Part shown: piece by piece, positions 2,844 through 30,222 of the stretch | Layout: every line of letters starts with the position of its first letter | Numbering within the stretch: position 1 is the stretch's first letter | Source: Lamellibrachia columna | Lineage: Eukaryota > Annelida > Polychaeta > Sabellida > Siboglinidae | Assembly (NCBI GenBank): GCA_963662155.1 | Contig: OY759261.1 | Location: 41,276,056 to 41,340,055 of the forward strand | Length of the DNA stretch: 64,000 bases | Direction of reading: 5' to 3' | Translations under genes and position numbers: made by a program | Notes under the pieces: model-generated | The model's input: only the letters and a program-made list of their open reading frames with translations | Databases searched by the model: none | Told to the model about the DNA's origin: nothing

Positions 2844-2885
2844 GAAACGTTCAAGGCCTTGATTCCCGATTGACTGGTGCTGAAG
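2844..2885 (+). CDS. Coiled-coil mini-exon A1 (14 codons, phase 1-1)
   Basis: First exon of the array. Acceptor tttgtttcag, donor gtaagt. Read with one base carried in from the previous exon it gives GNVQGLDSRLTGAE. Hydrophobic residues V3, L6, L10 and A13 have the 3-4-3-4 spacing of heptad a/d positions, and 14 residues are exactly two heptads, so consecutive exons keep register. R9-L10-T11-G12-A13-E14 fits the R-h-x-x-h-E motif known from trimeric coiled coils. A1 is unusual: it ends in the codons for AE like type C, while all other A exons end AV. No start codon or signal peptide lies in this exon; upstream exons must be outside the window or unrecognised. Confidence 0.72.
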
Positions 2886-3949
2886 GTAAGTCATCAACTC
2901 CATTGCAGAAATTCAGTCAATTGTTTTATATTATATTGAAGGAATTACGTTTCTAAGTAATTAACATATAACATGAATACCGGAGTCGACCTATTAAGCG
3001 TACATGCCATAATTAGCATACATCCCCTTTTTAATCAGCAGGATCCATAATTATTGTAAGTTGACTAGTGTGGAACAGCTGAGAAGTGTCGCCATCTGGT
3101 GTTAAGTTGTTGCAACCGCTTTTCAATTGTTCCACATTTGTCACCAAATGACACAACTAGTGTTAAACAGCTACCTTATAATCTACAGAAACACATTTTA
3201 TTGTACACTTATGAGAACAGATTCCTTGATATTTTTTCATTGCCCAATTATTTTTCCAGCGTACTGTAAGCTTATTAGGTTGAATACAGTATGTATTGAT
3301 TCTACGTATCACAATCTGTAAAGTCACAGGAAACTTCTGCCCATTTTGGAGTAATTGAAAAATTCAACAACTACTTTTCGGAGTACGCGACTAACACTGG
3401 TATTACTTCACATTACTTTCTGCTGTAAAGAAATTATCCAACTGTGATGTAATTCAGAATCATTACTGTTGCTACTTTTCTTGTTGGTGTCTGTGTGAAT
3501 TGGTTGTGAAACTAATCACACCATGCCAATCTGTAATACAGAACTTAAGAACGGCCATCCCATCCCACTGGAATGCACCTTCTGTTTAGAAATAACTTTA
3601 ATAGCGTCTCCTTTGACAACATGGTCATTTGTTTCTTTACAACGAAGACTCCCATGCAACAGCTGTTGATGTAAATGACGTGTCAATATCCTCTTTCATC
3701 ATTTGATCAGTTAGACGATTGAAATCGTTGAATGGTGGCATTATGTTTCTGTTCTTGTCACCATAATTATTGGCTGTATCTGGCATGGCAACAATACCTT
3801 GTTATAAAACTTCATGGTGTGATGTAATTGTATCAGTTTGTTAACAGCCAAGTTGCAGCAAAATACACTGTTATTACTGATTCCTATGGATCCATTAAAT
3901 AATGTCCATGTGCATTTGATTGACAATGATACAAATCATCTTTTTTTAG

Positions 3950-3991
3950 GACAAGTTGTGGGCCTTGATTCCCGTTTGACTGGAACTGAAG
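3950..3991 (+). CDS. Coiled-coil mini-exon B1 (14 codons, phase 1-1)
   Basis: Acceptor is a run of T then tag; donor gtaagtcaac. Peptide GQVVGLDSRLTGTE, two heptads with a/d residues V3, L6, L10, T13. Residues 9-14 (RLTGTE) keep the R and E of the trimer motif with Thr at the second core position. This copy has Val at residue 4 (gtg), as in units 4, 6 and 8; the rest have Ala. Confidence 0.75.
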
Positions 3992-4537
3992 GTAAGTCAA
4001 CCAGTCTCTTGCAGAAGTTCAGTCAATACTTTTGTAATATTTTGAAGGTATTGCATTACAAAATGGTAAAGTATTACAGGCTTATTAGTTGCAGTATAAA
4101 ACTTCTACAGTTGATGTATGTGTGAATTGGTGGTGGAAAAAACACGCCAAACAAATCTGTAATACTGAATTTAAGAAACCCACGTCAGTGCAATAACCTG
4201 AATAGAAATACAGCCAATACAAAGCTGCCACAGATATAGTCTTAAGAGACAGCTTTAATGTGCTGGTATTACTTCAACTAAACTTTCAAACAAATTCTAT
4301 AAATTGTCTGACACTATCTCCCAGTTTTACCATTGATTACTTTACCATTTACTATAGGGACTGTTACCTTTCTGGTTGCTTTTTCTTCTTTTACAGCCTG
4401 ATCGTGTAGATTTAATTACATCGGTTTTATGACAACCATGACAACGATAAATATATTTAATTAACGAGATTGATTGACCCCTTTGTAATCTTCATATGTA
4501 TCTGACTGACACTAATGCAAAAGCTTATTTGTTTCAG

Positions 4538-4579
4538 GGAACGTTCTGAACCTAGATTCCAGATTGACTGGTGCTGAAG
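4538..4579 (+). CDS. Coiled-coil mini-exon C1 (14 codons, phase 1-1)
   Basis: Acceptor gtttcag, donor gtaggtg. Peptide GNVLNLDSRLTGAE; heptad core V3, L6, L10, A13 and a full R-L-x-x-A-E trimer motif. C exons use the weaker GTAGGT donor where A and B use GTAAGT. Confidence 0.75.
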
Positions 4580-5340
4580 GTAGGTGAACAACTCCATATC
4601 TGAAGTTAAGTCAATGGTTTTATGTTATTTGTAGGTATTATGCTATCATACATAACTAAATGGTAAATCAATATATCCTAGCTGTAAGTACATGAACAAG
4701 ATGATTGATCACAGCAAATTTATGTCCATTTTGCAATATTATACATCAAACACTTTGATTTGGAGTAGGTGATCTGGTAATGACTAGGCATTATGAGTGT
4801 GTGCTAGTTGTTTTTACCAAATATTTAGGTATAACAGGTTTAGTAATTATAATATCTCTCTAATCTGCGTGAATTGGTGGTGAAACTAACCACACCACGC
4901 AAATATGTAATACAGAATTTAAGTAACCCACATGAGTGCATTATCATGGTTAGAAATAGCTCAACTAACATCTTTTGACAACATGTTCATTTGTTTCAAT
5001 ACATCGAAGACATAGCTACAACAGTTGTCATTAATGTGTTGGTATTACTAGAGCTAACACTTTTTAACAAATGGTGTACATTGCCTGGGACTATCTTCCA
5101 GTTGTTCCATTTACCACTCATAGAAATTTAAATCATTGATTTGCTAGATTTGTGTTCTTGGAACCACCTATACAGTCTTTACCCTGAGGATTTTATCGCC
5201 TGATTGCCTCAATATAATTGCAACGGTTTCATAGCAAACAGGATTTAACTAAGCATATTTTATTAGAAAGACTGATTGGCTCACTAAGTAAAGGATTCAG
5301 CTTTTGATTGACAATGATAGAAAATGCATCTTTCTTTCAG

Positions 5341-5382
5341 GAAACGTTCAGGGCCTTGATTCCCGATTGACTGGTGCAGTAG
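5341..5382 (+). CDS. Coiled-coil mini-exon A2
   Basis: Acceptor tttctttcag, donor gtaagt, phase 1-1. Peptide GNVQGLDSRLTGAV; the final Val replaces the Glu of the R-h-x-x-h-E motif. The 42 bases are identical in A2 to A10. Confidence 0.75.
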
Positions 5383-6447
5383 GTAAGTCATCAACTCCAT
5401 TGCAGAAATTCAGTCAATTATTTGATATTATATTGAAGGAATTACGATTCTAAGTAATTAACATATAACATGAATACCGGAGTCGACCTATTAAGCGTAC
5501 ATGCCCTAATTAGCATGCAGTCCCTTTTTAATCAGCAGGATCCATAATTGTTGTAAGTTGACTAGTGTGGAACAAATGAGAAGTGTCGCCATCTGGTGTT
5601 AAGTTGTTGCAACCGCTTTTCAATAGTTCTACATTTGTCACCAAATGACACCACTAGTGTTAAACAGCTACCTTATTGTCTACAGAAACACATTTTATTT
5701 TACACTTATGAGAACAGATTCCTTGATATTTTTTCATTGCCCAATTATTTTTCCAGCGTACTGTAAGCTTATTAGGTTGAATACAGTATGTGTTGATTCT
5801 ATGTATGTTCACAACCTGTAAAGTCACAGGAAACTTCTGCCCATTTTGGAGTAATTAAAAAATTCAACAACTACTTTTCGGAGTATGCGACTAACACTGG
5901 TATTACTTCACATTACTTTCTGCTGTAAAGAAATTATCCAACTGTGATGTAATTCAGAATCATTACTGTTGCTACTTTTCTAGTTGGTGTCTGTGTAAAT
6001 TGGTTGTGAAACTAATCACACCATGCCAATCTGTAATACAGAACTTAAGAACGGCCATCCCATCCCACTGGAATGCACCTTCTGTTTAGAAATAACTTTA
6101 ATAGCATCTCCTTTGACAACATGGTCATTTGTTTCTTTACAACGAAGATTCCCATGCAACAGCTGTTGATGTAAATGACGTGTCAGTATCCTCTTTCATC
6201 ATTTTATCAGTTAGACGATTGAAATCGTTGAATGGTAGCATTATGTTTCTGTTCTTGTCACCATAATTATGTGCTGTATCTGCCATGGCAACAATACCTT
6301 GTTATAAAACTTGGTGTGATGTAATTGTATCAGTTTGTTAACAGCCAGGTTGCAGCAAAATACACTGTTATTACTAATTCCTATGGATCCATTAAATAAT
6401 GTCCATGTACATTTGATTGACAATGATACAAATCATCTTTTTTTAAG

Positions 6448-6489
6448 GACAAGTTGCGGGCCTTGATTCCCGTTTGACTGGAACTGAAG
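6448..6489 (+). CDS. Coiled-coil mini-exon B2
   Basis: Phase 1-1, donor gtaagt. The acceptor here is tttttttaag rather than tag, still AG. Peptide GQVAGLDSRLTGTE (Ala at residue 4). Confidence 0.74.
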
Positions 6490-7035
6490 GTAAGTCAACC
6501 AGTCTCTTGCAGAAGTTCAGTCAATACTTTTGTAATATTTTGAAGGTATTGCATTACAAAATGGTAAAGTATTACAGGCTTATTAGTTGCAGTATAAAAC
6601 TTCTACAGTTGATGTATGTGTGAATTGGTGGTGAAAAAAACACGCCAAACAAATCTGTAATACTGAATTTAAGAAACCCACGTCAGTGCAATAACCTGAA
6701 TAGAAATACAGCCAATACAAAGCTGCCACAGTTATTGTCTTAAGAAACAGCTTTAATGTGCTCGTATTACTTCAACTAAACTTTCAAACAAATTCTATAA
6801 ATTGTCTGACACTATCTCCCAGTTTTACCATTGATTACTTTACCATTTACTATAGGAACTGTTACCATTCTAGTTGCTTTTTCTTCTTTTACAGCCTGAT
6901 CGTGTAGATTTAATTACATCGGTTTTATGACAACCATGACAACGATAAATATATTTAATTAACGAGATTGATTGACCCCTTTGTAATGTTCATATGTATC
7001 TGACTGACACTAATGCAAAAGCTGATTTGTTTCAG

Positions 7036-7077
7036 GGAACGTTCTGAACCTAGATTCCAGATTGACTGGTGCTGAAG
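7036..7077 (+). CDS. Coiled-coil mini-exon C2
   Basis: Phase 1-1, acceptor gtttcag, donor gtaggtg. Peptide GNVLNLDSRLTGAE, identical in bases to C1. Confidence 0.75.
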
Positions 7078-7839: not shown

Positions 7840-7881
7840 GAAACGTTCAGGGCCTTGATTCCCGATTGACTGGTGCAGTAG
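7840..7881 (+). CDS. Coiled-coil mini-exon A3
   Basis: Phase 1-1, acceptor tttctttcag, donor gtaagt. Peptide GNVQGLDSRLTGAV, base-identical to A2. Confidence 0.75.
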
Positions 7882-8944
7882 GTAAGTCATCAACTCCATT
7901 GCAGAAATTCAGTCAATTATTTGATATTATATTGAAGGAATTACGTTTCTATATAATTAACATATTATAACATGAATACCGGAGTGGACCTATTAAGCGT
8001 ACATGCCCTAATTAGCATGCAGTCCCTTTTTAATCAGCAGGATCCATAATTATTGTAAGTTGACTAGTGTGGAACAACTGAGAAGTGTCGCCATCTGGTG
8101 TTCAGTTGTTGAAACCGCTTCTCAATAGTTCTACATTTGTCACCAAATGACACCACTAGTGTTAAACAGCTACCTTATTGTCTACAGAAACACATTTTAT
8201 TTTACACTTATGAGAACAGATTCCTTGATATTTTTTCATTGCCCAATTATTTTTCCAGCGTACTGTAGGCTTATTAGGTTGAATACAGTATGTATTGAAT
8301 CTACGTATGTTCACAACCTGTAAAGTCACAGGAAACTTCTGCCCATTTTGGAGTAATTAAAAAATTCAACAACTACTTTTCGGAGTACGTGACTAACACT
8401 GGTATTACTTCACATTATTTCTGCTGTAAAGAAATTATCCAATTGTGATGTAATTCAGAATCATTACTGTTACTACTTTTCTAGTTGGTGTCTGTGTAAA
8501 TTGGTTGTGAAACTAATCACACCATGCCAATCTGTAATACAGAACTTAAGAACGGCCATCCCATCCCACTGGAATATACCTTCTGTTTAGAAATAACTTT
8601 AATAGCATCTCCTTTGACAACATGGTCATTTGTTTCTTTACAACGAAGACTCCCATGCAACAGCTGTTGATGTAAATGACACGTCAATATCCTCTTTCAT
8701 CATTTTATCAGACGATTGAAATCGTTGAATGGTAGCATTATGTTTCTGTTCTTGTCACCATAATTATGGGCTGTATCTGCCATGGTAACAATACCTTGTT
8801 ATAAAACTTGGTGTGATGTAATTGTATCAGTTTGTTAACAGCCAGGTTGCAGCAAAATACACTGTTATTACTGATTCCTATGGATCCATTAAATAATGTC
8901 CATGTACATTTGATTGACAATGATACAAATCATCTTTTTTTTAG

Positions 8945-8986
8945 GACAAGTTGCGGGCCTTGATTCCCGTTTGACTGGAACTGAAG
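8945..8986 (+). CDS. Coiled-coil mini-exon B3
   Basis: Phase 1-1, T-rich tag acceptor, donor gtaagt. Peptide GQVAGLDSRLTGTE. The intron just after it has the aaaagataa variant typical of odd-numbered units. Confidence 0.75.
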
Positions 8987-9533
8987 GTAAGTCAACCAGT
9001 CTCTTGCAAAAGATAATTCAATACTTTTGTAATATTTTGAAGGTATTGCATTATAAAATGGTAAAGTATTACAGGCTTATTAGTTGCAGAATAAAACTTC
9101 TACAGTTGATGTATGTGTGAATTGGTGGTGAAAAAAACACACCAAACAAATCTGTAATACTGAATTTAAGAAACCCACGTTAGTGCAATAACCTGAATAG
9201 AAATACAGCCAATACAAAGCTGCCACAGTTATTGTCTTAAGAAACAGCTTTAATGTGCTGGTATTACTCCAACTAAACTTTCAAACAAATTCTATAAATT
9301 GTCTGACACTATCTCCCAGTTTTACCATTGATTACTTTACCATTTACTATAGGGACTGTTACCATTCTGGTTGCTTTTTCTTCTTTTACAGCCTGATCGT
9401 GTAGATTTAATTACATTGGTTTTATGACAACCATGACAACGATAAATATATTTAATTAACGAGATTGATTGACCCCTTTGTAATGTTCATATGTATCTGA
9501 CTGACACTTAATGCAAAAGCTTATTTGTTTAAG

Positions 9534-9575
9534 GGAATGTTCTGAACCTAGATTCCAGATTGACTGGTGCTGAAG
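9534..9575 (+). CDS. Coiled-coil mini-exon C3
   Basis: Phase 1-1, donor gtaggtc. Peptide GNVLNLDSRLTGAE with a silent change (aat for Asn2). Its acceptor is tttgtttaag instead of tttgtttcag, probably weaker; this exon is the best candidate in the array for inefficient inclusion. Confidence 0.7.
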
Positions 9576-10359: not shown

Positions 10360-10401
10360 GAAACGTTCAGGGCCTTGATTCCCGATTGACTGGTGCAGTA
10401 G
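10360..10401 (+). CDS. Coiled-coil mini-exon A4
   Basis: Phase 1-1, same splice sites and same 42 bases as A2; peptide GNVQGLDSRLTGAV. The surrounding unit 4 is especially close to unit 1 (both share ataatctacag and tacgtatcacaatctg in the A-B intron). Confidence 0.75.
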
Positions 10402-11465
10402 GTAAGTCATCAACTCCATTGCAGAAATTCAGTCAATTATTTGATATTATATTGAAGGAATTTCGTTTCTAAGTAATTAACATATAACATGAATATCGGA
10501 GTCGACCTATTAAGCATACATGCCCTAATTAGCATGCAGTCCCTTTTTAATCAGCAGTATCCATAATTATTGTAAGTTGACTAGTGTGGAACAGCTGAGA
10601 AGTGTCGCCATCTGGTGTTAAGTTGTTGCAACCGCTTTTCAATTGTTCCACATTTGTCACCAAATGACACAACTAGTGTTAAACAGCTACCTTATAATCT
10701 ACAGAAACACATTTTATTGTACACTTATGAGAACAGATTCCTTGATATTTTTTCATTGCCCAATTATTCTTCCAGCGTACTGTAAGCTTATTAGGTTGAA
10801 TACAGTATGTATTGATTCTACGTATCACAATCTGTAAAGTCACAGGAAACTTCTGCCCATTTTGGAGTAATTGAAAAATTCAACAACTACTTTTCGGAGT
10901 ACGCGACTAACACTGGTATTACTTAACATTACTTTCTGCTGTAAAGAAATTATCCAACTGTGATGTAATTCAGAATCATTACTGTTGCTACTTTTCTTGT
11001 TGGTGTCTGTGTGAATTGGTTGTGAAACTAATCACACCATGCCAATCTGTAATACAGAACTTAAGAACGGCCATCCCATCCCACTGGAATGCACCTTCTG
11101 TTTAGAAATAACTTTAATAGCGTCTCCTTTGACAACATGGTCATTTGTTTCTTTACAACGAAGACTCCCATGCAACAGCTGTTGATGTAAATGACGTGTC
11201 AATATCCTCTTTCATCATTTGATCAGTTAGACGATTGAAATCGTTGAATGGTGGCATTATGTTTCTGTTCTTGTCACCATAATTATTGGCTGTATCTGGC
11301 ATGGCAACAATACCTTGTTATAAAACTTCATGGTGTGATGTAATTGTATCAGTTTGTTAACAGCCAAGTTGCAGCAAAATACACTGTTATTACTGATTCC
11401 TATGGATCCATTAAATAATGTCCATGTGCATTTGATTGACAATGATACAAATCATCTTTTTTTAG

Positions 11466-11507
11466 GACAAGTTGTGGGCCTTGATTCCCGTTTGACTGGA
11501 ACTGAAG
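11466..11507 (+). CDS. Coiled-coil mini-exon B4
   Basis: Phase 1-1, tag acceptor, donor gtaagt. Peptide GQVVGLDSRLTGTE (Val at residue 4, as in B1). Confidence 0.75.
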
Positions 11508-12056
11508 GTAAGTCAACCAGTCTCTTGCAGAATTTCAGTCAATACTTTTGTAATATTTTGAAGGTATTGCATTACAAAATGGTAAAGTATTACAGGCTTA
11601 TTAGTTGCAGTATAAAACTTCTACAGTTGATGTATGTGTGAATTGGTGGTGGAAAAAAAACAGGCCAAACAAATCTGTAATACTGAATTTAAGAAACCCA
11701 CGTCAGTGCAATAACCTGAATAGAAATACAGCCAAATCAAAGCTGCAACAGTTATTGTCTTAAGAAACAGCTTTAATGTGCTGGTATTACTTCAACTAAA
11801 CTTTCAAACAAATTCTATAAATTGTGTGACACTATTACCCAGTTTTTTATATTGATTACTTTACTATTTACTATAGGGACTGTTACCATTCTGGTTGCTT
11901 TTTCTTCTTTTACAGCCTGATCGTGTAGATTTAATTACATTGGTTTTATGACAACCATGACAACGATAAATATATTTAATTAACGAGATTGATTGACCCC
12001 TTTGTAATGTTCATATGTATCTGACTGACACTAATGCAAAAGCTTATTTGTTTCAG

Positions 12057-12098
12057 GGAACGTTCTGAACCTAGATTCCAGATTGACTGGTGCCGAAG
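12057..12098 (+). CDS. Coiled-coil mini-exon C4
   Basis: Phase 1-1, acceptor tttcag, donor gtaggtc. Peptide GNVLNLDSRLTGAE with a silent gcc for Ala13. Confidence 0.75.
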
Positions 12099-12879: not shown

Positions 12880-12921
12880 GAAACGTTCAGGGCCTTGATT
12901 CCCGATTGACTGGTGCAGTAG
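12880..12921 (+). CDS. Coiled-coil mini-exon A5
   Basis: Phase 1-1, base-identical to A2; peptide GNVQGLDSRLTGAV. Acceptor tttctttcag, donor gtaagt. Confidence 0.75.
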
Positions 12922-13990
12922 GTAAGTCATCAACTCCATTGCAGAAATTCAGTCAATTATTTGATATTATATTGAAGGAATTACGTTTCTAAGTAATTAA
13001 CATATAACATGAATACCGGAGTCGACCTATTAAGCGTACATGCCCTAATTAGTATGCAGTCCCTTTTTAATCAGCAGGATCCATAATTATTGTAAGTTGA
13101 CTAGTGTAGAACAACCGAGAAGTGTCGCCATCTGGTGTTAAGTTGTTGCAACCGCTTTTCAATAGTTCTACATTTGTCACCAAATGACACCACTAGTGTT
13201 AAACAGCTACCTTATTGTCTACAGAAACACATTTTATTGTACACTTATGAGAACAGATTCCTTGATATTTTTTCATTGCCCAATTATTTTTCCAGCGTAC
13301 TGTAAGCTTATTAGGTTGAATACAGTATGTATTGAATCTACGTATGTTCACAACCTGTAAAGTCACAGGAAACTTCTGCCCATTTTGGAGTAATTAAAAA
13401 ATTCAACAACTACTTTTCGGAGTACGCGACTAACACTGGTATTACTTCACATTACTTTCTGCTGTAAAGAAATTATCCAACTGTGATGTAATTCAGAATC
13501 ATTACTGTTGCTACTTTTCTTGTTGGTGTCTGTGTGAATTGGTTGTGAAACTAATCACACCATGCCAATCTGTAATACAGAACTTAAGAACGGCCATCCC
13601 ATCCCACTGGAATGCACCTTCTGTTTAGAAATAACTTTAATAGCGTCTCCTTTGACAACATGGTCATTTGTTTCTTTACAACGAAGACTCCCATGCAACA
13701 GCTGTTGATGTAAATGACGTGTCAATATCCTCTTTCATCATTTTATCAGTTAGACGATTGAAATCGTTGAATGGTAGCATTATGTTTCTGTTCTTGTCAC
13801 CATAATTATTGGCTGTATCTGGCATGGCAACAATACCTTGTTATAAAACTTCATGGTGTGATGTAATTGTATCAGTTTGTTAACAGCCAGGTTGCAGCAA
13901 AATACACTGTTATTACTGATTCCTATGGATCCATTAAATAATGTCCATGTACATTTGATTGACAATGATACAAATCATCTTTTTTTTTAG

Positions 13991-14032
13991 GACAAGTTGC
14001 GGGCCTTGATTCCCGTTTGACTGGAACTGAAG
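13991..14032 (+). CDS. Coiled-coil mini-exon B5
   Basis: Phase 1-1, preceded by a long T run and tag; donor gtaagt. Peptide GQVAGLDSRLTGTE; odd-unit intron variant follows. Confidence 0.75.
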
Positions 14033-14580
14033 GTAAGTCAACCAGTCTCTTGCAAAAGATAATTCAATACTTTTGTAATATTTTGAAGGTATCGCATTAC
14101 AAAATGGTAAAGTATTACAGGCTTATTAGTTGCAGTATAAAACTTCTATAGTTGATGTATGTGTGAATTGGTGGTGCAAAAAAAACACGCCAAACAAATG
14201 TGTAATACTGAATTTAAGAAACCCACGTTAGTGCAATAACCTGAATAGAAATACAGCCAAATCAAAGCTGCCACAGTTATTGTCTTAAGAAACAGCTTTA
14301 ATGTGCTGTTATTACTTCAACTAAACTTTCAAACAAATTCTATAAATTGTGTGACACTATTACCCAGTTTATCCATTGATTACTTTACTATTTACTATAG
14401 GGACTGTTACCATTCTGGTTGCTTTTTCTTCTTTTACAGCCTGATCGTGTAGATTTAATTACATCGGTTTTATGACAACCATGACAACGATAAATATATT
14501 TAATTAACGAGATTGATTGACCCCTTTGTAATGTTCATATGTATCTGACTGACACTAATGCAAAAGCTTATTTGTTTCAG

Positions 14581-14622
14581 GGAACGTTCTGAACCTAGAT
14601 TCCAGATTGACTGGTGCCGAAG
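14581..14622 (+). CDS. Coiled-coil mini-exon C5
   Basis: Phase 1-1, acceptor tttgtttcag, donor gtaggtc. Peptide GNVLNLDSRLTGAE, gcc for Ala13. Confidence 0.75.
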
Positions 14623-15405: not shown

Positions 15406-15447
15406 GAAACGTTCAGGGCCTTGATTCCCGATTGACTGGTGCAGTAG
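15406..15447 (+). CDS. Coiled-coil mini-exon A6
   Basis: Phase 1-1, base-identical to A2; peptide GNVQGLDSRLTGAV; donor gtaagt. Confidence 0.75.
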
Positions 15448-16514
15448 GTAAGTCATCAACTCCATTGCAGAAATTCAGTCAATTATTTGATATTATATTG
15501 AAGGAATTTCGTTTCTAAGTAATTAACATATAACATGAATATCGGAGTCGACCTATTAAGCATACATGCCCTAATTAGTATGCAGTCCCTTTTTAATCAG
15601 CAGGATCCATAATTATTGTAAGTTGACTAGTGTAGAACAACCGAGAAGTGTCGCCATCTGGTGTTAAGTTGTTGCAACCGCTTTTCAATAGTTCTACATT
15701 TGTCACCAAATGACACCACTAGTGTTAAACAGCTACCTTATTGTCTACAGAAACACATTTTATTGTACACTTATGAGAACAGATTCCTTGATATTTTTTC
15801 ATTGCCCAATTATTTTTCCAGCGTACTGTAGGCTTATTAGGTTGAATACAGTATGTGTTGATTCTATGTATGTTCACAACCTGTAAAGTCACAGGAAACT
15901 TCTGCCCATTTTGGAGTAATTAAAAAATTCAACAACTACTTTTCGGAGTACGCGACTAACACTGGTATTACTTCACATTACTTTCTGCTGTAAAGAAATT
16001 ATCCAACTGTGATGTAATTCAGAATCATTACTGTTGCTACTTTTCTTGTTGGTGTCTGTGTGAATTGGTTATGAAACTAATCACACCATGCCAATCTGTA
16101 ATACAGAACTTAAGAACGGCCATCCCATCCCACTGGAATGCACCTTCTGTTTAGAAATAACTTTAATAGCGTCTCCTTTGACAACATGGTCATTTGTTTC
16201 TTTACAACGAAGACTCCCATGCAACAGCTGTTGATGTAAATGACGTGTCAATATCCTCTTTCATCATTTTATCAGTTAGACGATTGAAATCGTTGAATGG
16301 TAGCATTATGTTTCTGTTCTTGTCACCATAATTATTGGCTGTATCTGGCATGGCAACAATACCTTGTTATAAAACTTCATGGTGTGATGTAATTGTATCA
16401 GTTTGTTAACAGCCAGGTTGCAGCAAAATACACTGTTATTACTGATTCCTATGGATCCATTAAATAATGTCCATGTGCATTTGATTGACAATGATACAAA
16501 TCATCTTTTTTTAG

Positions 16515-16556
16515 GACAAGTTGTGGGCCTTGATTCCCGTTTGACTGGAACTGAAG
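16515..16556 (+). CDS. Coiled-coil mini-exon B6
   Basis: Phase 1-1, tag acceptor, donor gtaagt. Peptide GQVVGLDSRLTGTE (Val variant). Confidence 0.75.
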
Positions 16557-17102
16557 GTAAGTCAACCAGTCTCTTGCAGAAGTTCAGTCAATACTTTTGT
16601 AATATTTTGAAGGTATTGCATTACAAAATGGTAAAGTATTACAGGCTTATTAGTTGCAGTATAAAACTTCTACAGTTGATGTATGTGTGAATTGGTGGTG
16701 AAAAAAACCCGCCAAACAAATCTGTAATACTGAATTTAAGAAACCCACGTCAGTGCAATAACCTGAATAGAAATACAGCCAATACAAAGCTGCCACAGTT
16801 ATTGTCTTAAGAAACAGCTTTAATGTGCTGGTATTACTTCAACTAAACTTTCAAACAAATTCTATAAATTGTGTGACACTATTACCCAGTTTTACCATTG
16901 ATTACTTTACTATTTACTATAGGGACTGTTACCATTCTGGTTGCTTTTTCTTCTTTTACAGCCTGATCGTGTAGATTTAATTACATCGGTTTTATGACAA
17001 CCATGACAACGATAAATATATTTAATTAACGAGATTGATTGACCCCTTTGTAATGTTCATATGTATCTGACTGACACTAATGCAAAAGCTTATTTGTTTC
17101 AG

Positions 17103-17144
17103 GGAACGTTCTGAACCTAGATTCCAGATTGACTGGTGCTGAAG
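17103..17144 (+). CDS. Coiled-coil mini-exon C6
   Basis: Phase 1-1, acceptor tttgtttcag, donor gtaggtc. Peptide GNVLNLDSRLTGAE, gct for Ala13. Confidence 0.75.
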
Positions 17145-17925: not shown

Positions 17926-17967
17926 GAAACGTTCAGGGCCTTGATTCCCGATTGACTGGTGCAGTAG
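17926..17967 (+). CDS. Coiled-coil mini-exon A7
   Basis: Phase 1-1, base-identical to A2; peptide GNVQGLDSRLTGAV; donor gtaagt. Confidence 0.75.
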
Positions 17968-19033
17968 GTAAGTCATCAACTCCATTGCAGAAATTCAGTC
18001 AATTATTTGATATTATATTGAAGGAATTACGTTTCTAAGTAATTAACATATAACATGAATACCGGAGTCGACCTATTAAGCGTACATGCCCTAATTAGTA
18101 TGCAGTCCCTTTTTAATCAGCAGGATCCATAATTATTGTAAGTTGACTAGTGTAGAACAACCGAGAAGTGTCGCCATCTGGTGTTAAGTTGTTGCAACCG
18201 CTTTTCAATAGTTCTACATTTGTCACCAAATGACAAAACTAGTGTTAAACAGCTACCTTATTGTCTACAGAAACACATTTTATTGTACACTTATGAGAAC
18301 AGATTCCTTGATATTTTTTCATTGCCCAATTATTTTTCCAGCGTACTGTAAGCTTATTAGGTTGAATACAGTATGTATTGAATCTACGTATGTTCACAAC
18401 CTGTAAAGTCACAGGAAACTTCTGCCCATTTTGGAGTAATTAAAAAATTCAACAACTACTTTTCGGAGTACGCGACTAACACTGGTATTACTTCACATTA
18501 CTTTCTGCTGTAAAGAAATTATCCAACTGTGATGTAATTCAGAATCATTACTGTTGCTACTTTTCTTGTTGGTGTCTGTGTGAATTGGTTGTGAAACTAA
18601 TCACACCATGCCAATCTGTAATACAGAACTTAAGAACGGCCATCCCATCCCACTGGAATGCAACTTCTGTTTAGAAATAACTTTAATAGCGTCTCCTTTG
18701 ACAACATGGTCATTTGTTTCTTTACAACGAAGACTCCCATGCAACAGCTGTTGATGTAAATGACGTGTCAATATCCTCTTTCATCATATTATCAGTTAGA
18801 CGATTGAAATCGTTGAATGGTAGCATTATGTTTCTGTTCTTGTCACCATAATTATGTGCTGTATCTGCCATGGCAACAATACCTTGTTATAAAACTTGGT
18901 GTGATGTAATTGTATCAGTTTGTTAACAACCAGGTTGCAGCAAAATACACTGTTATTACTGATTGCTATGGATCCATTAAATAATGTCCATGTACATTTG
19001 ATTGACAATGATACAAATCATCTTTTTTTTTAG

Positions 19034-19075
19034 GACAAGTTGCGGGCCTTGATTCCCGTTTGACTGGAACTGAAG
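19034..19075 (+). CDS. Coiled-coil mini-exon B7
   Basis: Phase 1-1, tag acceptor, donor gtaagt. Peptide GQVAGLDSRLTGTE; odd-unit intron variant follows. Confidence 0.75.
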
Positions 19076-19620
19076 GTAAGTCAACCAGTCTCTTGCAAAA
19101 GATAATTCAATACTTTTGTAATATTTTGAAGGTATCGCATTACAAAATGGTAAAGTATTACAGGCTTATTAGTTGCAGTATAAAACTTCTACAGTTGATG
19201 TATGTGTGAATTGGTGGTGAAAAAAACACACCAAACAAATCTGTAATATTGAATTTAAGAAACCCACGTCAGTGCAATAACCTGAATAGAAATACAGCCA
19301 ATACAAAGCTGCCACAGTTATTGTCTTAAGAAACAGCTTTAATGTGCTGGTATTACTTCAACTAAACTTTCAAACAAATTCTATAAATTGTGTGACACTA
19401 TTACCCAGTTTTACCATTGATTACTTTACTATTTACTATAGGGACTGTTACCATTCTGTTGCTTTTTCTTCTTTTACAGCCTGGTCGTGTAGATTTAATT
19501 ACATCGGTTTTATGACAACCATGACAACGATAAATATATTTAATTAACGAGATTGATTGACCCCTTTGTGATGTTCATATGTATCTGACTGACACTAATG
19601 CAAAAGCTTATTTGTTTCAG

Positions 19621-19662
19621 GGAACGTTCTGAACCTAGATTCCAGATTGACTGGTGCCGAAG
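19621..19662 (+). CDS. Coiled-coil mini-exon C7
   Basis: Phase 1-1, acceptor tttgtttcag, donor gtaggtg. Peptide GNVLNLDSRLTGAE, gcc for Ala13. Confidence 0.75.
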
Positions 19663-20443: not shown

Positions 20444-20485
20444 GAAACGTTCAGGGCCTTGATTCCCGATTGACTGGTGCAGTAG
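20444..20485 (+). CDS. Coiled-coil mini-exon A8
   Basis: Phase 1-1, base-identical to A2; peptide GNVQGLDSRLTGAV; donor gtaagt. Confidence 0.75.
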
Positions 20486-21552
20486 GTAAGTCATCAACTC
20501 CATTGGAGAAATTCAGTCAATTATTTGATATTATATTGAAGGAATTACGTTTCTAAGTAATTAACATATAACATGAATACCGGAGTCGACCTATTAAGCG
20601 TACATGCCCTAATTAGTATGCAGTCCCTTTTTAATCAGCATGATCCATAATTATTTTAAGTTGACTAGTGTAGAACAACTGAGAAGTGTCGCCATCTGGT
20701 GTTAAGTTGTTGCAACCGCTTTTCAATAGTTCTACATTTGTCACCAAATGACAAAACTAGTGTTAAACAGCTACCTTATAATCTACAGAAACACATTTTA
20801 TTGTACACTTATGAGAACAGATTCCACGATATTTTTTCATTGCCCAGTTATTTTTCCAGCGTACTGTAGGCTTATTAGGTTGAATACAGTATGTGTTGAT
20901 TCTATGTATGTTCACAACCTGTAAAGTCACAGGAAACTTCTGCCCATTTTGGAGTAATTAAAAAATTCAACAACTACTTTTCGGAGTATGCGACTAACAC
21001 TGGTATTACTTCACATTACTTCCTGCTTTGAAGAAATTATACAACTGTGATGTAATTCAGAATCATTACTGTTGCTACTTTTCTAGTTGGTGTCTTTGTA
21101 AATTGGTTGTGAAACTAATCACACCATGCCAATCTGTAATACAGAACTTAAGAACGGCCATCCCATCCCACTGGAATGCAACTTCTGTTTAGAAATAACT
21201 TTAATAGCGTCTCCTTTGACAACATGGTCATTTGTTTCTTTACAACGAAGACTCCCATGCAACAGCTGTTGATGTAAATGACGTGTCAATATCCTCTTTC
21301 ATCATTTTATCAGTTAGACGATTGAAATCGTTGAATGGTAGCATTATGTTTCTGTTCTTGTCACCATAATTATGGGCTGTATCTGGCATGGCAACAATAC
21401 TTTGTTATAAAACTTCATGGTGTGATGTAATTGTATTAGTTTGTTAACAGCCAGGTTGCAGCAAAATACACTGTTATTACTAATTCCTATGGATCCATTA
21501 AATAATGTCCATGTGCATTTGATTGACAATGATACAAATCATCTTTTTTTAG

Positions 21553-21594
21553 GACAAGTTGTGGGCCTTGATTCCCGTTTGACTGGAACTGAAG
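21553..21594 (+). CDS. Coiled-coil mini-exon B8
   Basis: Phase 1-1, tag acceptor, donor gtaagt. Peptide GQVVGLDSRLTGTE (Val variant). Confidence 0.75.
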
Positions 21595-22143
21595 GTAAGT
21601 CAACCAGTCTCTTGCAGAAGTTCAGTCAATACTTTTGTAATATTTTGAAGGTATTGCATTACAAAATGGTAAAGTATTACAGGCTTATTAGTTGCAGTAT
21701 AAAACTTCTACAGTTGATGTATGTGTGAATTGGTGGTGGAAAAAAAACACTCCAAACAAATGTGTAATACTGAATTTAAGAAACCCACGTTAGTGCAATA
21801 ACCTGAATAGAAATACAGCCAAATCAAAGCTGCCACAGTTATTGTCTTAAGAAACAGCTTTAATGTGCTGGTATTACTTCAACTAAACTTTCAAACAAAT
21901 TCTATAAATTGTGTGACACTATTACCCAGTTTTTTATATTGATTACTTTACTATTTACTATAGGGACTGTTACCATTCTGGTTGCTTTTTCTTCTTTTAC
22001 AGCCTGATCGTGTAGATTTAATTACATCGGTTTTATGACAACCATGACAACGATAAATATATTTAATTAACGAGATTGATTGACCCTTTTGTAATGTTCA
22101 TATGTATCTGACTGACACTAATGCAAAAGCTTATTTGTTTCAG

Positions 22144-22185
22144 GGAACGTTCTGAACCTAGATTCCAGATTGACTGGTGCCGAAG
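22144..22185 (+). CDS. Coiled-coil mini-exon C8
   Basis: Phase 1-1, acceptor tttgtttcag, donor gtaggtc. Peptide GNVLNLDSRLTGAE, gcc for Ala13. Confidence 0.75.
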
Positions 22186-22968: not shown

Positions 22969-23010
22969 GAAACGTTCAGGGCCTTGATTCCCGATTGACT
23001 GGTGCAGTAG
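22969..23010 (+). CDS. Coiled-coil mini-exon A9
   Basis: Phase 1-1, base-identical to A2; peptide GNVQGLDSRLTGAV; donor gtaagt. Confidence 0.75.
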
Positions 23011-24075
23011 GTAAGTCATCAACTCCATTGCAGAAATTCAGTCAATTATTTGATATTATATTGAAGGAATTTCGTTTCTAAGTAATTAACATATAACATG
23101 AATATCGGAGTCGACCTATTAAGCATACATGCCCTAATTAGCATGCAGTCCCTTTTTAATCAGCAGTATCCATAATTATTGTAAGTTGACTAGTGTGGAA
23201 CAGCTGAGAAGTGTCGCCATCTGGTGTTAAGTTGTTGCAACCGCTTTTCAATAGTTCCACATTTGTCACCAAATGACACAACTAGTGTTAAACAGCTACC
23301 TTATAATCTACAGAAACACATTTTATTGTACACTTATGAGAACAGATTCCTTGATATTTTTTCATTGCCCAATTATTTTTCCAGCGTACTGTAAGCTTAT
23401 TAGGTTGAATACAGTATGTATTGATTCTACGTATCACAATCTGTAAAGTCACAGGAAACTTCTGCCCATTTTGGAGTAATTGAAAAATTCAACAACTACT
23501 TTTCGGAGTACGCGACTAACACTGGTATTACTTCACATTACTTTCTGCTGTAAAGAAATTATCCAACTGTGATGTAATTCAGAATCATTACTGTTGCTAC
23601 TTTTCTTGTTGGTGTCTGTGTGAATTGGTTGTGAAACTAATCACACCATGCCAATCTGTAATACAGAACTTAAGAACGGCCATCCCATCCCACTGGAATG
23701 CACCTTCTGTTTAGAAATAACTTTAATAGCGTCTCCTTTGACAACATGGTCATTTGTTTCTTTACAACGAAGACTCCCATGCAACAGCTGTTGATGTAAA
23801 TGACGTGTCAATATCCTCTTTCATCATTTTATCAGTTAGACGATTGAAATCGTTGAATGGTAGCATTATGTTTCTGTTCTTTTCACCATAATTATTGGCT
23901 GTATCTGGCATGGCAACAATACCTTGTTATAAAACTTCATGGTGTGATGTAATTGTATCAGTTTGTTAACAGCCAAGTTGCAGCAAAATACACTGTTATT
24001 ACTGATTCCTATGGATCCATTAAATAATGTCCATGTGCATTTGATTGACAATGATACAAGTCATCTTTTTTTTAG

Positions 24076-24117
24076 GACAAGTTGCGGGCCTTGATTCCCG
24101 TTTGACTGGAACTGAAG
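24076..24117 (+). CDS. Coiled-coil mini-exon B9
   Basis: Phase 1-1, tag acceptor, donor gtaagt. Peptide GQVAGLDSRLTGTE; odd-unit intron variant follows. Confidence 0.75.
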
Positions 24118-24661
24118 GTAAGTCAATCAATCTCTTGCAAAAGATAATTCAATACTTTTGTAATATTTTGAAGGTATTGCATTACAAAATGGTAAAGTAT
24201 TACAGGCTTATTAGTTGCAGTATAAAACTTCTACAGTTGATGTATGTGTGAATTGGTGGTGAAAAAACCCGCCAAACAAATCTGTAATACTGAATTTAAG
24301 AAACCCACGTCAGTGCAATAACCTGAATAGGAATACAGCCAATACAAAGCTGCCACAGTTATTGTCTTAAGAAACAGCTTTAATGTGCTGGTATTACTTC
24401 AACTAAACTTTCAAACAAATTCTATAAATTGTGTGACACTATTACCCAGTTTTACCATTGATTACTTTACTATTTACTATAGGGACTGTTACCATTCTGT
24501 TGCTTTTTCTTCTTTTACAGCCTGATCGTGTAGATTTAATTACATCGGTTTTATGACAACCATGACAACGATAAATATATTTAATTAACGAGATTGATTG
24601 ACCCCTTTGTAATGTTCATATGTATCTGACTGACAGTAATGCAAAAGCTTATTTGTTTCAG

Positions 24662-24703
24662 GGAACGTTCTGAACCTAGATTCCAGATTGACTGGTGCTG
24701 AAG
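24662..24703 (+). CDS. Coiled-coil mini-exon C9
   Basis: Phase 1-1, acceptor tttgtttcag, donor gtaggtg. Peptide GNVLNLDSRLTGAE, gct for Ala13. Confidence 0.75.
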
Positions 24704-25487: not shown

Positions 25488-25529
25488 GAAACGTTCAGGG
25501 CCTTGATTCCCGATTGACTGGTGCAGTAG
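25488..25529 (+). CDS. Coiled-coil mini-exon A10
   Basis: Phase 1-1, base-identical to A2; peptide GNVQGLDSRLTGAV; donor gtaagt. The following intron has a small deletion near 25575. Confidence 0.75.
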
Positions 25530-26587
25530 GTAAGTCATCAACTCCATTGCAGAAATTCAGTCAATTATTTGATATTGAAGGAATTACGTTTCTAAGTAAT
25601 TAACATATAACATGAATACCGGAGTCGACCTATTAAGCGTACATGCCCTAATTAGTATGCAGTCCCTTTTTAATCAGCAGGATTCATAATTATTGTAAGT
25701 TGACTAGTGTAGAACAACTGAGAAGTGTCGCCATCTGGTGTTAAGTTGTTGCAACCGCTTTTCAATAGTTCTACATTTGTCACCAAATGACACCACTAGT
25801 GTTAAACAGCTACCTTATTGTCTACAGAAACACATTTTATTGTACACTTATGAGAACAGATTCCTTGATATTTTTTCATTGCCCAATTATTTTTCCAGCG
25901 TACTGTAAGCTTATTAGGTTGAATACAGTATGTATTGATTCTACGTATCACAATCTGTAAAGTCACAGGAAACTTCTGCCCATTTTGGAGTAATTGAAAA
26001 ATTCAACAACTACTTTTCGGAGTACGCGACTAACACTGGTATTACTTCACATTACTTTCTGCTGTAAAGAAATTATCCAACTGTGATGTAATTCAGAATC
26101 ATTACTGTTGCTACTTTTCTTGTTGGTGTCTGTGTGAATTGGTTGTGAAACTAATCACACCATGCCAATCTGTAATACAGAACTTAAGAACGGCCATCCC
26201 ATCCCACTGGAATGCACCTTCTGTTTAGAAATAACTTTAATAGCGTCTCCTTTGACAACATGGTCATTTGTTTCTTTACAACGAAGACTCCCATGCAACA
26301 GCTGTTGATGTAAATGACGTGTCAATATCCTCTTTCATCATTTTATCAGTTAGACGATTGAAATCGTTGAATGGTAGCATTATGTTTCTGTTCTTGTCAC
26401 CATAATTATTGGCTGTATCTGCCATGGCAACAATACCTTGTTATAAAACTTGGTGTGATGTAATTGTATCAGTTTGTTAACAGCCAGGTTGCAGCAAAAT
26501 ACACTGTTATTACTTATTCCTATGGATCCATTAAATAATGTCCATGTACATTTGATTGACAATGATACAAATAATCTTTTTTTTTAG

Positions 26588-26629
26588 GACAAGTTGCGGG
26601 CCTTGATTCCCGTTTGACTGGAACTGAAG
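26588..26629 (+). CDS. Coiled-coil mini-exon B10
   Basis: Phase 1-1, tag acceptor, donor gtaagt. Peptide GQVAGLDSRLTGTE; even-unit intron variant follows although residue 4 is Ala. Confidence 0.75.
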
Positions 26630-27175
26630 GTAAGTCAACCAGTCTCTTGCAGAAGTTCAGTCAATACTTTTGTAATATTTTGAAGGTATTGCATTATAAA
26701 ATGGTAAAGTATTACAGGCTTATTAGTTGCAGTATAAAACTTCTACAGTTGATGTATGTGTGAATTGGTGGTGAAAAAAACACGCCAAACAAATCTGTAA
26801 TACTGAATTTAAGAAACCCACGTCAGTGCAATAACCTGAATAGAAATACAGCCAATACAAAGCTGCCACAGTTATTGTCTTAAGAAACAGCTTTAATGTG
26901 CTGGTATTACTTCAACTAAACTTTCAAACAAATTCTATAAATTGTCTGACACTATCTCCCAGTTTTACCATTGAGTACTTTACCATTTACTATAGGGACT
27001 GTTACCATTCTGGTTGCTTTTTCTTCTTTTACAGCCTGATCGTGTAGATATAATTACATCGGTTTTATGATAACCACGACAATGATAAATATATTTAATT
27101 AACGAGATTGATTGACCCCTTTGTAATGTTCATATGTATCTGACTGACACTAATGCAAAAGCTTATTTGTTTCAG

Positions 27176-27217
27176 GGAACGTTCTGAACCTAGATTCCAG
27201 ATTGACTGGTGCCGAAG
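27176..27217 (+). CDS. Coiled-coil mini-exon C10
   Basis: Phase 1-1, acceptor tttgtttcag, donor gtaggtg. Peptide GNVLNLDSRLTGAE, gcc for Ala13. Confidence 0.75.
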
Positions 27218-27998
27218 GTAGGTGAACAACTCCATATCTGAAGTTAAGTCAATGGTTTTATGTTATTTGTAGGTATTATGCTATCAGACATAACTAAATG
27301 GTAAATCAATATATCCTAGCTGTAAGTACATGAACAAGATGATTGATCACAGCAAATTTATGTCCATTTTGCAATATTTAAGAAATACATCAAACACTTT
27401 GATTTGGAGTAGGTGATCTGGTAATGACTAGGCATTATGAGTGTGTGATAGTTGTTTTTACCAAATATTTAGGTATAACAGGTTTATTAATTATAATATC
27501 TCTCTAGTCTGCGTGAAGTGGTGGTGAAACTAACCACGCCACGCAAATATGTAATACAGAATTGAAGTAACCCACATGAGTGCATTATCATGGTTAGAAA
27601 TAGCTCAAATAACATCTTTTGGCAACATGTTCATTTGTTTCAATACATCGAAGACATAGCTACAACAGTTGTCATTTAATGTGTTGGTATTACTAGAGCT
27701 AAAACTTTGTAACAAATGGTATAAATTGCCTGGGACTATCATCCAGTTGTTCCATTTACCACTCATAGAAATTTAAATCATTGATTTGCTAGATTTGTGT
27801 TCTTGGAACCACCTATACAGTCTTTACCCTGAGGATTTTAGTTTCTTCTTATATCGCCTGATTGCCTCAATATAATTGCAACGGTTTCATAGCAAACAGG
27901 ATTTAACTAAGCATATTTTATTAGAAAGACTTATTGGCTCACTAAGTAAAGGATTCAGCTTTTGATTGACACTGATAGAAAATGCATCTTTCTTTCAG

Positions 27999-28040
27999 GA
28001 AACGTTCAGGGCCTTGATTCCCAATTGACTGGTGCAGTAG
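27999..28040 (+). CDS. Coiled-coil mini-exon A11 (Arg to Gln)
   Basis: Phase 1-1, acceptor tttctttcag, donor gtaagt. One base change (cga to caa) turns residue 9 to Gln: GNVQGLDSQLTGAV. It is the only loss of the otherwise invariant Arg in the whole array and sits in the last unit. Confidence 0.72.
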
Positions 28041-29105
28041 GTAAGTCATCAACTCCATTGCAGAAATTCAGTCAATTATTTGATATTATATTGAAGGAAT
28101 TACGTTTCTAAGTAATTAACATATAACATGAATACCGGAGTCGACCTATTAAGCGTACATGCCCTAATTAGCATGCAGTCCCTATTTAATCAGCAGGATC
28201 CATAATTATTGTAAGTTGACTAGTGTGGAACAACTGAGAAGTGTCGCCATCTGGTGTTAAGTTGTTGCACCCGCTTTTCAATAGTTCCACATTTGTCACC
28301 AAATGACACAACTAGTGTTAAACAGCTACCTTATTGTCTACAGAAACACATTTTATTGTACACTTATGAGAACAGATTCCTTGATATTTTTTCATTGCCC
28401 AATTATTTCTCCAGCGTACTGTAGGCTTATTAGGTTGAATACAGTATGTGTTGATTCTACGTATGTTCACAACCTGTAAAGTCACAGGAAACTTCTGCCC
28501 ATTTTGGAGTAATTAAAAAATTCAACAACTACTTTTCGGAGTACGTGACTAACACTGGTATTACTTCACATTACTTTCTGCTGTAAAGAAATTATCCAAC
28601 TGTGATGTAATTCAGAATCATTGCTGTTGCTACTTTTCTAGTTGGTGTCTGTGTAAATTGGTTGTGAAACTAATCACACCATGCCAATCTGTAATACAGA
28701 ACTTAAGAACGGCCATCCCATCCCACTGGAATGCACCTTCTGTTTAGAAGTAACTTTAATAGCATCTCCTATGACAACATGGTCATTTGTTTCTTTACAA
28801 CGAAGACTCCCACGCAACAGCTGTTGATGTAAGTGACGTGTCAATATCCTCTTTCATCATTTTATCAGTTAGACGATTGAAATCGTTGAATGGTAGCATT
28901 ATGTTTCTGTTCTTGTCACCATAATTATGGGCTGTATCTGCCATGGCAACAATACCTTGTTATAAAACTTGGTGTGATGTAATTGTATCAGTTTGTTAAC
29001 AGCCAGGTTGCAGCAAAATACACTGTTATTACTGATTCCTATGGATCCATTAAATAATGTCCATGTACATTTGATTGACAATGATACAAATCATCTTTTT
29101 TTTAG

Positions 29106-29147
29106 GACAAGTTGCGGGCCTTGATTCCCGTTTGACTGGAACTGAAG
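29106..29147 (+). CDS. Coiled-coil mini-exon B11
   Basis: Phase 1-1, tag acceptor, donor gtaagt. Peptide GQVAGLDSRLTGTE; odd-unit intron variant follows. Confidence 0.75.
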
Positions 29148-29478
29148 GTAAGTCAACCAGTCTCTTGCAAAAGATAATTCAATACTTTTGTAATATTTTG
29201 AAGGTATTGCATTATAAAATGGTAAAGTATTACAGGCTTATTAGTTGCAGTATAAAACTTCTACAGTTGATGTATGTGTGAATTGGTGGTGAAAAAAACA
29301 CACCAAACAAATCTGTAATACTGAATTTAAGAAACCCACGTCAGTGCAATAACCTGAATAGAAATACAGCCAATACAAAGCTGCCACAGTTATTGTCTTA
29401 AGAAACAGCTTTAATGTGCTGGTATTACTTCAACTAAACTTTCAAACAAATTCTATAAATTGTCTGACACTATCTCCC

Positions 29479-29752
29479 AGTTTTACCATTGATTACTTTA
29501 CCATTTACTATAGGGACTGTTACAATTCTGGTTGCTTTTTCTTCTTTTACAGCCTGATCGTGTAGATTTAATTACATCGGTTTTATTGTAACTATGACAA
29601 CGATAAATATTTTAAATAGTTTTACCATTGATTACTTTACCATTTACTATAGGGACTGTTACCATTCTGGTTGCTTTTTCTTCTTTTACAGCCTGATCGT
29701 GTAGATTTAATTACATCGGTTTTATTACAACCATGACAACGATAAATATATT
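29479..29752. repeat. Local tandem duplication inside the last array unit
   Basis: A segment of about 135 bp running from the gttttaccattgattacttt motif to the acgataaatat motif occurs twice in a row, with slightly different junctions. All other units have it once. It marks breakdown of the array at its right edge. Confidence 0.85.
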
Positions 29753-29832
29753 TAATTAACGAGATTGATTGACCCCTTTGTGATGTTCACATGTATCTGA
29801 CTGACACTAATGCAAAAGCTTATTTGTTTCAG

Positions 29833-29874
29833 GGAACGTTCTGAACCTAGATTCCAGATTGACTGGTGCCGAAG
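29833..29874 (+). CDS. Coiled-coil mini-exon C11
   Basis: Phase 1-1, acceptor tttgtttcag. Peptide GNVLNLDSRLTGAE, gcc for Ala13. Its donor is gtaagtg rather than the gtaggt of the other C exons. It is the last of the 33 array exons; the intron behind it carries two internal deletions. Confidence 0.75.
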
Positions 29875-29902
29875 GTAAGTGAACAACTCCATATCTGAAG
29901 TT

Positions 29903-30222
29903 TAGTCAATGTAATGACTAGGCATTATGAGTGTGTGCTAGTTGTTTTTACCAAATATTTAGGTATAACAGGTTTATTAATTATAATATCTCTCTAGTCT
30001 GCGTGAAGTGGTGGTGACATCGAAGACATAGCTACAACAGTTGTTGTCATTTAATGTGTTGGTATTACTAGAGCTAAAACTTTGTAACAAATGGTATAAA
30101 TTGCCTGGGACTATCATCCAGTTGTTCCATTTACCACTTATAGAAATTTAAATCATTGATTTGCTAGATTTGTGTTCTTGGAACCACCTATACAGTCTTT
30201 ACCCTGAGGATTTTAGTTTCTT
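29903..30222. other. Deleted remnant of the C-A intron at the array end
   Basis: Compared with other units, the intron after C11 jumps from gtcaatg directly to taatgactaggc, and from gtggtga directly to catcgaagacatagc, losing two blocks of a few hundred bases in total. After about 30222 the homology stops and the D-type block begins. Confidence 0.8.

Follow-up and report, generated by a model that had tools for sequence, protein, structure and literature searches.

An eleven-fold array of two-heptad mini-exons probably encodes the main part of a coiled-coil stalk in an NLR-type receptor gene of the tubeworm Lamellibrachia columna

The sequence analysed here, called the window, is a stretch of 64,000 nucleotides from the vestimentiferan tubeworm Lamellibrachia columna (C1:41276056-41340055, where C1 is contig OY759261.1 of an 880-Mb genome); 50 kb of upstream and 40 kb of downstream flank were read with it. 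On its plus strand lies a tandem array of mini-exons which, judged from the sequence, belong to an immune-receptor gene of the NLR (NACHT) type; a first-pass annotation made from the letters alone had missed this context. What that annotation had described was all located, namely 33 segments, each 42 bp long, from the first at 2844-2885 to the last at 29833-29874. Every one sits behind an AG and in front of a donor, GTAAGT (n=23) or GTAGGT (n=10), and together they make an eleven-fold amplification. Exon scan, block alignment and translation arranged them into eleven A-B-C blocks of three exon types. Block 1 spans 2844-4579 (A 2844-2885, B 3950-3991, C 4538-4579), block 2 5341-7077 (5341-5382, 6448-6489, 7036-7077), block 3 7840-9575 (7840-7881, 8945-8986, 9534-9575), block 4 10360-12098 (10360-10401, 11466-11507, 12057-12098), block 5 12880-14622 (12880-12921, 13991-14032, 14581-14622), block 6 15406-17144 (15406-15447, 16515-16556, 17103-17144), block 7 17926-19662 (17926-17967, 19034-19075, 19621-19662), block 8 20444-22185 (20444-20485, 21553-21594, 22144-22185), block 9 22969-24703 (22969-23010, 24076-24117, 24662-24703), block 10 25488-27217 (25488-25529, 26588-26629, 27176-27217) and block 11 27999-29874 (27999-28040, 29106-29147, 29833-29874). 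The ten complete blocks measure 2497-2526 bp. Pairwise divergence among the eleven is 1.3-3.5%, so the 33 exons, being three types in such similar blocks, are not independent copies.

Read in phase 1-1, type A encodes GNVQGLDS(R/Q)LTGA(V/E), type B GQV(A/V)GLDSRLTGTE and type C GNVLNLDSRLTGAE, that is 14 residues, or exactly two heptads, per exon. This phase is open in 33/33 exons and the joined peptide is without stop. The other phases had been said to run into stops; this is true of 27 of the 33 exons, but in the six C copies with a GCC codon (12057, 14581, 19621, 22144, 27176 and 29833) a second phase is open too. Upstream of the B exons at 3950, 11466, 16515 and 21553 the frame stays open to an alternative possible acceptor, which would make a 144-bp exon.

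When the window was searched with gaps allowed, neither an additional nor a broken copy of the array exons came up. A loose scan for AG-42-GTR segments open in phase 1-1 gave 42 candidates on the gene strand and 16 on the opposite strand; a tighter scan for 42-bp phase 1-1 exons gave 40 and 2, respectively. The 42 comprised the 33 array exons and nine others, four of which form a second class of 42-bp exons, of EEQKK... type, here called D, placed between the array and the NACHT exon. When strict splice sites and lengths of 27-303 bp were imposed on the interval 30200-60000, five candidates remained, and the four of exactly 42 bp were these same D exons; on the opposite strand of the window the strict scan yielded one candidate, of 30 bp. 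The D exons, all on the plus strand, are at 30296-30337 (EEQKKDKQERQALK), 41032-41073 (EEQKKAERERHALE, with a weaker donor, GTAATT), 44375-44416 (EEQKKVKLERQALK) and 49065-49106 (EEQKKAKLERQTLE).

Further downstream on the same strand, profile and sequence searches identified a NACHT-HD exon at 60129-61788, with a match to PF05729 at 3.2×10−29 (102.4 bits, cut-off 26.7). Among sequences from the PDB, NLRP3 chains were its best matches. NLRC4_HD2 reached 31.2 bits (cut-off 33.1) and NOD2_WH 16.1 bits (cut-off 23.1). NB-ARC, a hallmark of the plant CC-NLRs, scored just 12.4 bits for a cut-off of 23.5, far below NACHT. No match to Fisna (PF14484) up to E 0.1 was found in the NACHT exon, and a scan of viral contigs with this exon returned no relative. 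Since the exon starts in phase 1, mini-exons can be spliced directly into it; it ends in phase 2. Exons for leucine-rich repeats (LRR) of this gene were not found in the sequence read, which has 2500 N at 64001-66500, directly past the window end, where an LRR exon might lie.

Upstream, the gene continues outside the window, with a DUF4559 part 8-11 kb away. In the coordinates of the window, a long open frame from -15446 leads to the phase-0 end of exon 1 at -10968, where the sequence is DUF4559-like; exon 2 (-10099 to -9941) and exon 3 (-8326 to -8036, C1:41267729-41268019) are both of phase 0-0, and exon 4 (-5242 to -5152) is of phase 0-1. The DUF4559 profile spans all three joined exons 1-3 (7.6×10−34), which supports the exon joins. 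A phase-compatible chain thus runs from exon 1 through exons 2, 3 and 4, the 33 array exons and the four D exons, all 1-1, to the NACHT exon (1-2). Exon 4 ends ...LGPLGRKVDDLQ, and by direct reading its 3-4 hydrophobic spacing continues into the first array exon. CARD, Death and PYD gave no match up to E 0.1 in the 337 N-terminal residues scanned, which leave aside the part of exon 1 rich in Pro, Ala and Thr; N-termini commonly vary within the animal NLR family. That part of exon 1 belongs to a frame open over 1493 codons (C1:41260609-41265087; -15446 to -10968), made largely of Pro/Ala/Thr/Ser repeats of the types ATPSAAPGTAAPAATTAV and KPAVASKP, following a dinucleotide repeat. Exon 3 carries nine HTSDIHQ-type heptads on 21-bp units, where the gene of a related array described below (array 5) has VQALDGT heptads instead; these 21-bp heptad units are a second DNA mechanism of coil growth in the same gene.

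The best named relatives of the NACHT exon were proteins of Lamellibrachia satsuma, the top hits carrying no name. One protein, P0029, shares 98% identity with half of the query, and its C-terminal 53 residues align at 100% with 68346-68504. A public L. satsuma model, P0130, is named 'Protein NLRC5'; in it an N-terminal domain is followed by VQALDGT-type heptads, then GNVQDLDSRLTSAE GNVQGLGSRLTGTV GQVAGLDSRLTGTE GNVQGLDSRLTGAE, a short linker, DELKKLEESLKVVQQ, NACHT, HD2 and an LRR-like end. HD2 scored 33.5 bits there, just above its cut-off, and the LRR matches remained below theirs. Compared to the gene of array 5, P0130 was 95.9% identical in the N-terminal exon (268 residues) and 97.3% in the NACHT exon (559 residues), and its four 14-mers fell singly on the four mini-exons of that array, with two residue differences. 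As P0130 matches them in order, a separate annotation joins these mini-exons to NACHT.

Other models carry 14-residue repeats too. P0062, a relative, has LRR_6 and LRR_4 above cut-off and one clear 14-residue repeat, GNVHDLDSRLAGVE; P0129 has five 14-residue repeats and no NACHT match; in P0068, 14-mers of another series precede the same NACHT-adjacent sequence. No continuous exon encoding the P0068 14-mers was found: the best of 17 matches extended over residues 90-118 only and lay 2.5 kb 5′ of the NACHT exon found at C1:57.88 Mb, and the 16 weaker ones lay elsewhere. This agrees with separate mini-exons at C1:57.88 Mb, without showing them. A protein search with 210 residues of joined repeat had returned eight hits under length limits that excluded long NLRs, which a later search without that limit reached. 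The four hits inspected look bacterial or phage-like (P0002 has GDITGLDGRLTTAE). A phage or bacterial origin of the repeat was rejected and the likeness attributed to convergence, since the window is accounted for by its exon structure, its NACHT context and the L. satsuma models.

A genome-wide search was made for exact matches to a pattern of 34 places, covering the 3′ part of the exon and its donor. It gave 128 matches, and its reversed control 0. Of these, 119 could be placed, 54 in array 2, 32 in the window, 14 in array 3, 17 in array 4 and 2 in array 5; 9 on the reverse strand were left without placement. Five arrays thus lie on C1, with 4, 14, 21, 33 and 54 exons (the last figure being the pattern matches of array 2). 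Array 2 (C1:35.077-35.121 Mb, minus strand) had 32 of its exons read; the window array, on the plus strand, has 32 exact matches among its 33 exons; array 3 (C1:50.437-50.449 Mb, minus) has 15 copies, 14 with AG; array 4 (C1:58.419-58.435 Mb, minus) has 22 copies, 21 with AG; and array 5 (C1:61.901-61.904 Mb, plus) has 4 exons. Arrays 3 and 4 are built of shorter blocks (about 2.1-2.2 kb), and their C type is GNVLSLDSRLTGAE. A diverged form of the pattern with CTN at position 10, the sole one searched, had 0 matches.

A NACHT exon lies downstream on the same strand in 4 of the 5 arrays, at 30.3 kb in the window, 11.4 kb for array 3, 21.7 kb for array 4 and 8.2 kb for array 5; those of arrays 3, 4 and 5 are 66-68% identical to the window's. 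The chance probability is about 4×10−9 for 25 hits evenly spread on C1 (a recount of 26 gave the same order), a figure which serves as a guide only, as NLR genes cluster. Array 3 also has upstream exons of the same kind as those of the window gene. With one mismatch allowed, D-class exons were found 14 times genome-wide: four of these are the window's own, one lies beside array 2, two precede a NACHT exon at 40.30 Mb that is 88% identical, and seven are at 50.665-50.680 Mb. The last are a run on the minus strand (C1:50665205-50679742), with no close NACHT exon among the matches listed.

We next consider what the array encodes. From the sequence, it probably forms the main part of the coiled-coil stalk that an NLR (NACHT) immune-receptor gene encodes in this vestimentiferan tubeworm. 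The unbroken a/d register from exon to exon that had been claimed was found again, as V3, L6, L10 and A/T13 recur without interruption every 14 residues in the joined peptide; at the sequence level this is an unbroken heptad with hydrophobic a and d. The suggested coiled-coil check was made on the joined peptide. With COILS-type weights, the mean heptad score of the joined repeat was 1.37, whereas 200 shuffled versions averaged 0.91 and reached 1.06 at most; scores of the D exons were 1.66-1.83. In the proposed arrangement, all 33 exons would be spliced into one transcript and, with the four D exons, would give 518 residues, or about 77 nm if fully helical, as estimated from helix rise. Placed between the N-terminal part with DUF4559 and the NACHT switch, the coil would serve both as a spacer and as a stalk for self-association; such a stalk would be long, perhaps flexible.

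Part of the evidence that the copies are coding comes from constraint. Over the five arrays, no in-frame stop was found in 106 exon copies, and AG was present in 104. In 24 aligned blocks (11 from the window, 10 from array 2 and 3 from array 3), gap columns numbered 0/126 in exons and 456/2549 in introns, neighbouring columns not being independent. Distinct changes, counted by hand over the 104 AG copies with the two others left out, were 17 silent and 10 replacement, for an expected silent share of 29-34% (P 2×10−4 to 2×10−3; omega about 0.24-0.30). Leaving out the most diverged exon of array 5, the count was 13 silent to 8 replacement (P 0.0016-0.007). Pairwise pN/pS among the A, B and C exons, and among the D exons, was uninformative at 42 bp.

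Several observations nevertheless weigh against the stalk. Glycine makes up 2-3 of the 14 residues of each repeat, and the coil probability was only 0.32-0.66 at the six array positions printed. Fixed differences (2/126 columns in exons, 111/2090 in introns, p = 0.09) and variable columns (12/126 and 408/2549, p = 0.06) are lower in exons, but not significantly so. The A, B and C exons differ from each other at 9, 8 and 12 of 42 bases (71-81% identical, ungapped), about like their intron flanks (70-84%). Array 2 has no close NACHT exon, its nearest downstream match being about 90 kb off and 30% identical. In arrays 3 and 4 the first A-like copy (C1:50448873 and C1:58435468) has AA instead of AG and reads RN(V/I)EGLDTRLIGAE; C is missing at three places of these arrays, once together with B, and array 3 contains a single weak C-like match that needs a gap (25 bp with 4 mismatches and 1 gap). 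Copies therefore also decay, the AA-bearing ones being either decayed or users of another acceptor. The exon scans, being ungapped, would miss indel-broken copies; a gapped search found none in the window array, array 2 (in the part read), array 4 and array 5.

Part of this would fit a tandem duplication inside an intron, with most copies never spliced in. With blocks just 1.3-3.5% apart, constraint on the youngest window copies is not demonstrable; that exon and intron divergence do not differ significantly, that two first exons lack AG and that a few copies are missing would also be as such a duplication predicts. We nevertheless hold it to be improbable, in view of the absence of stops from all 106 copies and the silent excess, of the gaps confined to introns (456/2549 columns, against 0/126 in exons), and of P0130, which uses all four exons of the smallest array.

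The relation between the window array and array 2 informs on how the coding array, as we take it to be, has grown. In a block tree where array 2 was represented by its blocks 9-18, blocks of the two arrays interleave: window block 7 adjoins array-2 block 14, 8 adjoins 15 and 9 adjoins 16, while window blocks 10 and 11 break this offset of seven, 10 grouping with array-2 block 18. The array-2 blocks 10 to 12 are almost identical to each other. The interleaving indicates that both arrays share an ancestor and have since grown to 11 and 18 blocks. Reverse-transcriptase-like reading frames lie at 30478-32391, after the first D exon; this retroelement insertion is present beside both arrays and therefore predates their split. 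Along the 3′ flank the two copies differ at 12 of 1262 aligned bases, with 332 further positions in gaps.

Such closeness raises the question of an assembly error, in which the length of the array, or the second copy at C1:35.08-35.12 Mb, would be an artefact or a misplaced haplotype. The shared insertion and near-identical flank speak for it, as does the position of array 2, inverted, 6 Mb away and with no close NACHT partner. Yet blocks inside an array differ from each other, and arrays 3, 4 and 5 are diverged loci of the same architecture, so that we regard this explanation as quite improbable.

A two-stage growth is suggested. As A, B and C share related introns, an exon-plus-intron unit would have been duplicated first, yielding the three types, and the triplet block of about 2.5 kb would have been amplified later by tandem duplication. 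The block pattern is what unequal exchange between blocks would give. The first-pass annotation had proposed that mini-exons are duplicated with their introns, lengthening the coil one 14-residue step at a time; the first half of this proposal stood, but recent amplification looks as if it went by blocks of three exons, or 42 residues, and single exon-plus-intron copying would apply only to the older divergence of A, B and C.

Here one exon corresponds to one structural unit of the protein, so that the coil can lengthen or shorten by exactly two heptads at a time, and because the exons are symmetric (42 bp, phase 1-1), gaining, losing or skipping any number of them keeps both frame and a/d register. 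The stalk would then evolve in whole-heptad steps by unequal recombination. The same symmetry would allow the exons, although real, to be used in subsets, alternative splicing giving different stalk lengths from one gene. P0129 fits this, with five repeats where the arrays that resemble it, in which the C type has S at position 5, count 14 and 21 exons. However, P0129 may reflect a collapsed assembly or a gene-finder error, and the copies resemble one another too closely to be a source of sequence diversity; we judge use in subsets rather unlikely. Returning to a stalk built from the whole array, a more speculative idea, which we offer tentatively and with some doubt, is that innate immunity here uses a heritable molecular ruler. 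The count of symmetric two-heptad exons would fix how far the N-terminus lies from NACHT, and unequal exchange between 2.5-kb blocks would alter that count quickly; individuals might differ in it too, and splicing might change it as well. Bearing on it are the range of 4-54 exons among five loci and the 11 versus 18 blocks in two copies about 1% apart. If true, the ruler would operate in an animal group with an expanded NLR family, living on internal symbionts. The natural series of loci with 4-54 units makes the question of whether stalk length tunes NLR assembly directly testable.

The array had been put forward as the strongest candidate for an undescribed system. This is too strong, since immune-receptor arrays with one repeat per exon are known, as the papers cited below describe. 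In the zebrafish NLR-B30.2 family, short N-terminal peptide repeats, each a single exon, vary in number and are extensively duplicated in some groups, but the repeat, of about 30 residues, is not presented as a coil in that paper, where the word 'coiled' is absent, and these fish proteins have Fisna and B30.2 domains (PMC4852459). Brown-algal ROCO genes, candidate immune receptors, have one structural repeat per tandem exon of fixed length (72 bp) and phase, with alternative splicing reported; their repeats are LRRs of variable sequence in phase 2, neither coil nor NLR (PMC11378527). The Olduvai triplets of human NBPF resemble our blocks in that three diverged units are combined into a repeat of several kb, itself amplified in tandem, with copy number reported to vary among human genomes; the protein, with its Olduvai domain on a monomer of about 1.6 kb, is unrelated and set apart by architecture only (PMC9584774). 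Schistosome micro-exon genes are split into numerous tiny exons of 3-81 bp with long introns between them, but encode secreted proteins, and their abstract mentions no amplified heptad block (PMC10526429). P0130 also has the same 14-residue repeats ahead of a NACHT exon of the same kind, but with four repeats only, and it is a database model for which no description of an exon array was found.

In vestimentiferans, NLRs have been reported to be lineage-expanded, with 20 in Paraescarpia and 68 in Lamellibrachia luymesi (PMC8476170); NLR or NLRP expansion in tubeworms is reported in PMC8476170 and PMC6862839, whose accessible text has no such mini-exons. The terms NLR, NACHT and NOD-like are absent from the text of PMC8789280, a tubeworm genome paper, and a tubeworm NLR is described in the available part of PMC11508797 as CARD-NACHT-LRR, unlike the window gene. 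No literature description of this exon array was located in the accessible texts, most subscription papers lying outside the search. As far as these searches reach, the novelty lies in the combination: the receptor is an animal NLR, its repeated exon corresponds to two heptads, and that exon has been amplified to dozens of copies. Gene models presumably miss 42-bp exons easily, and the stalks of vestimentiferan receptors may therefore be under-described.

Finally, between the first and second D exons, a 63-copy minisatellite of 14 bp (CACTGCACAGGAAA) occupies 39820-40693, and the open frames in it are probably meaningless.

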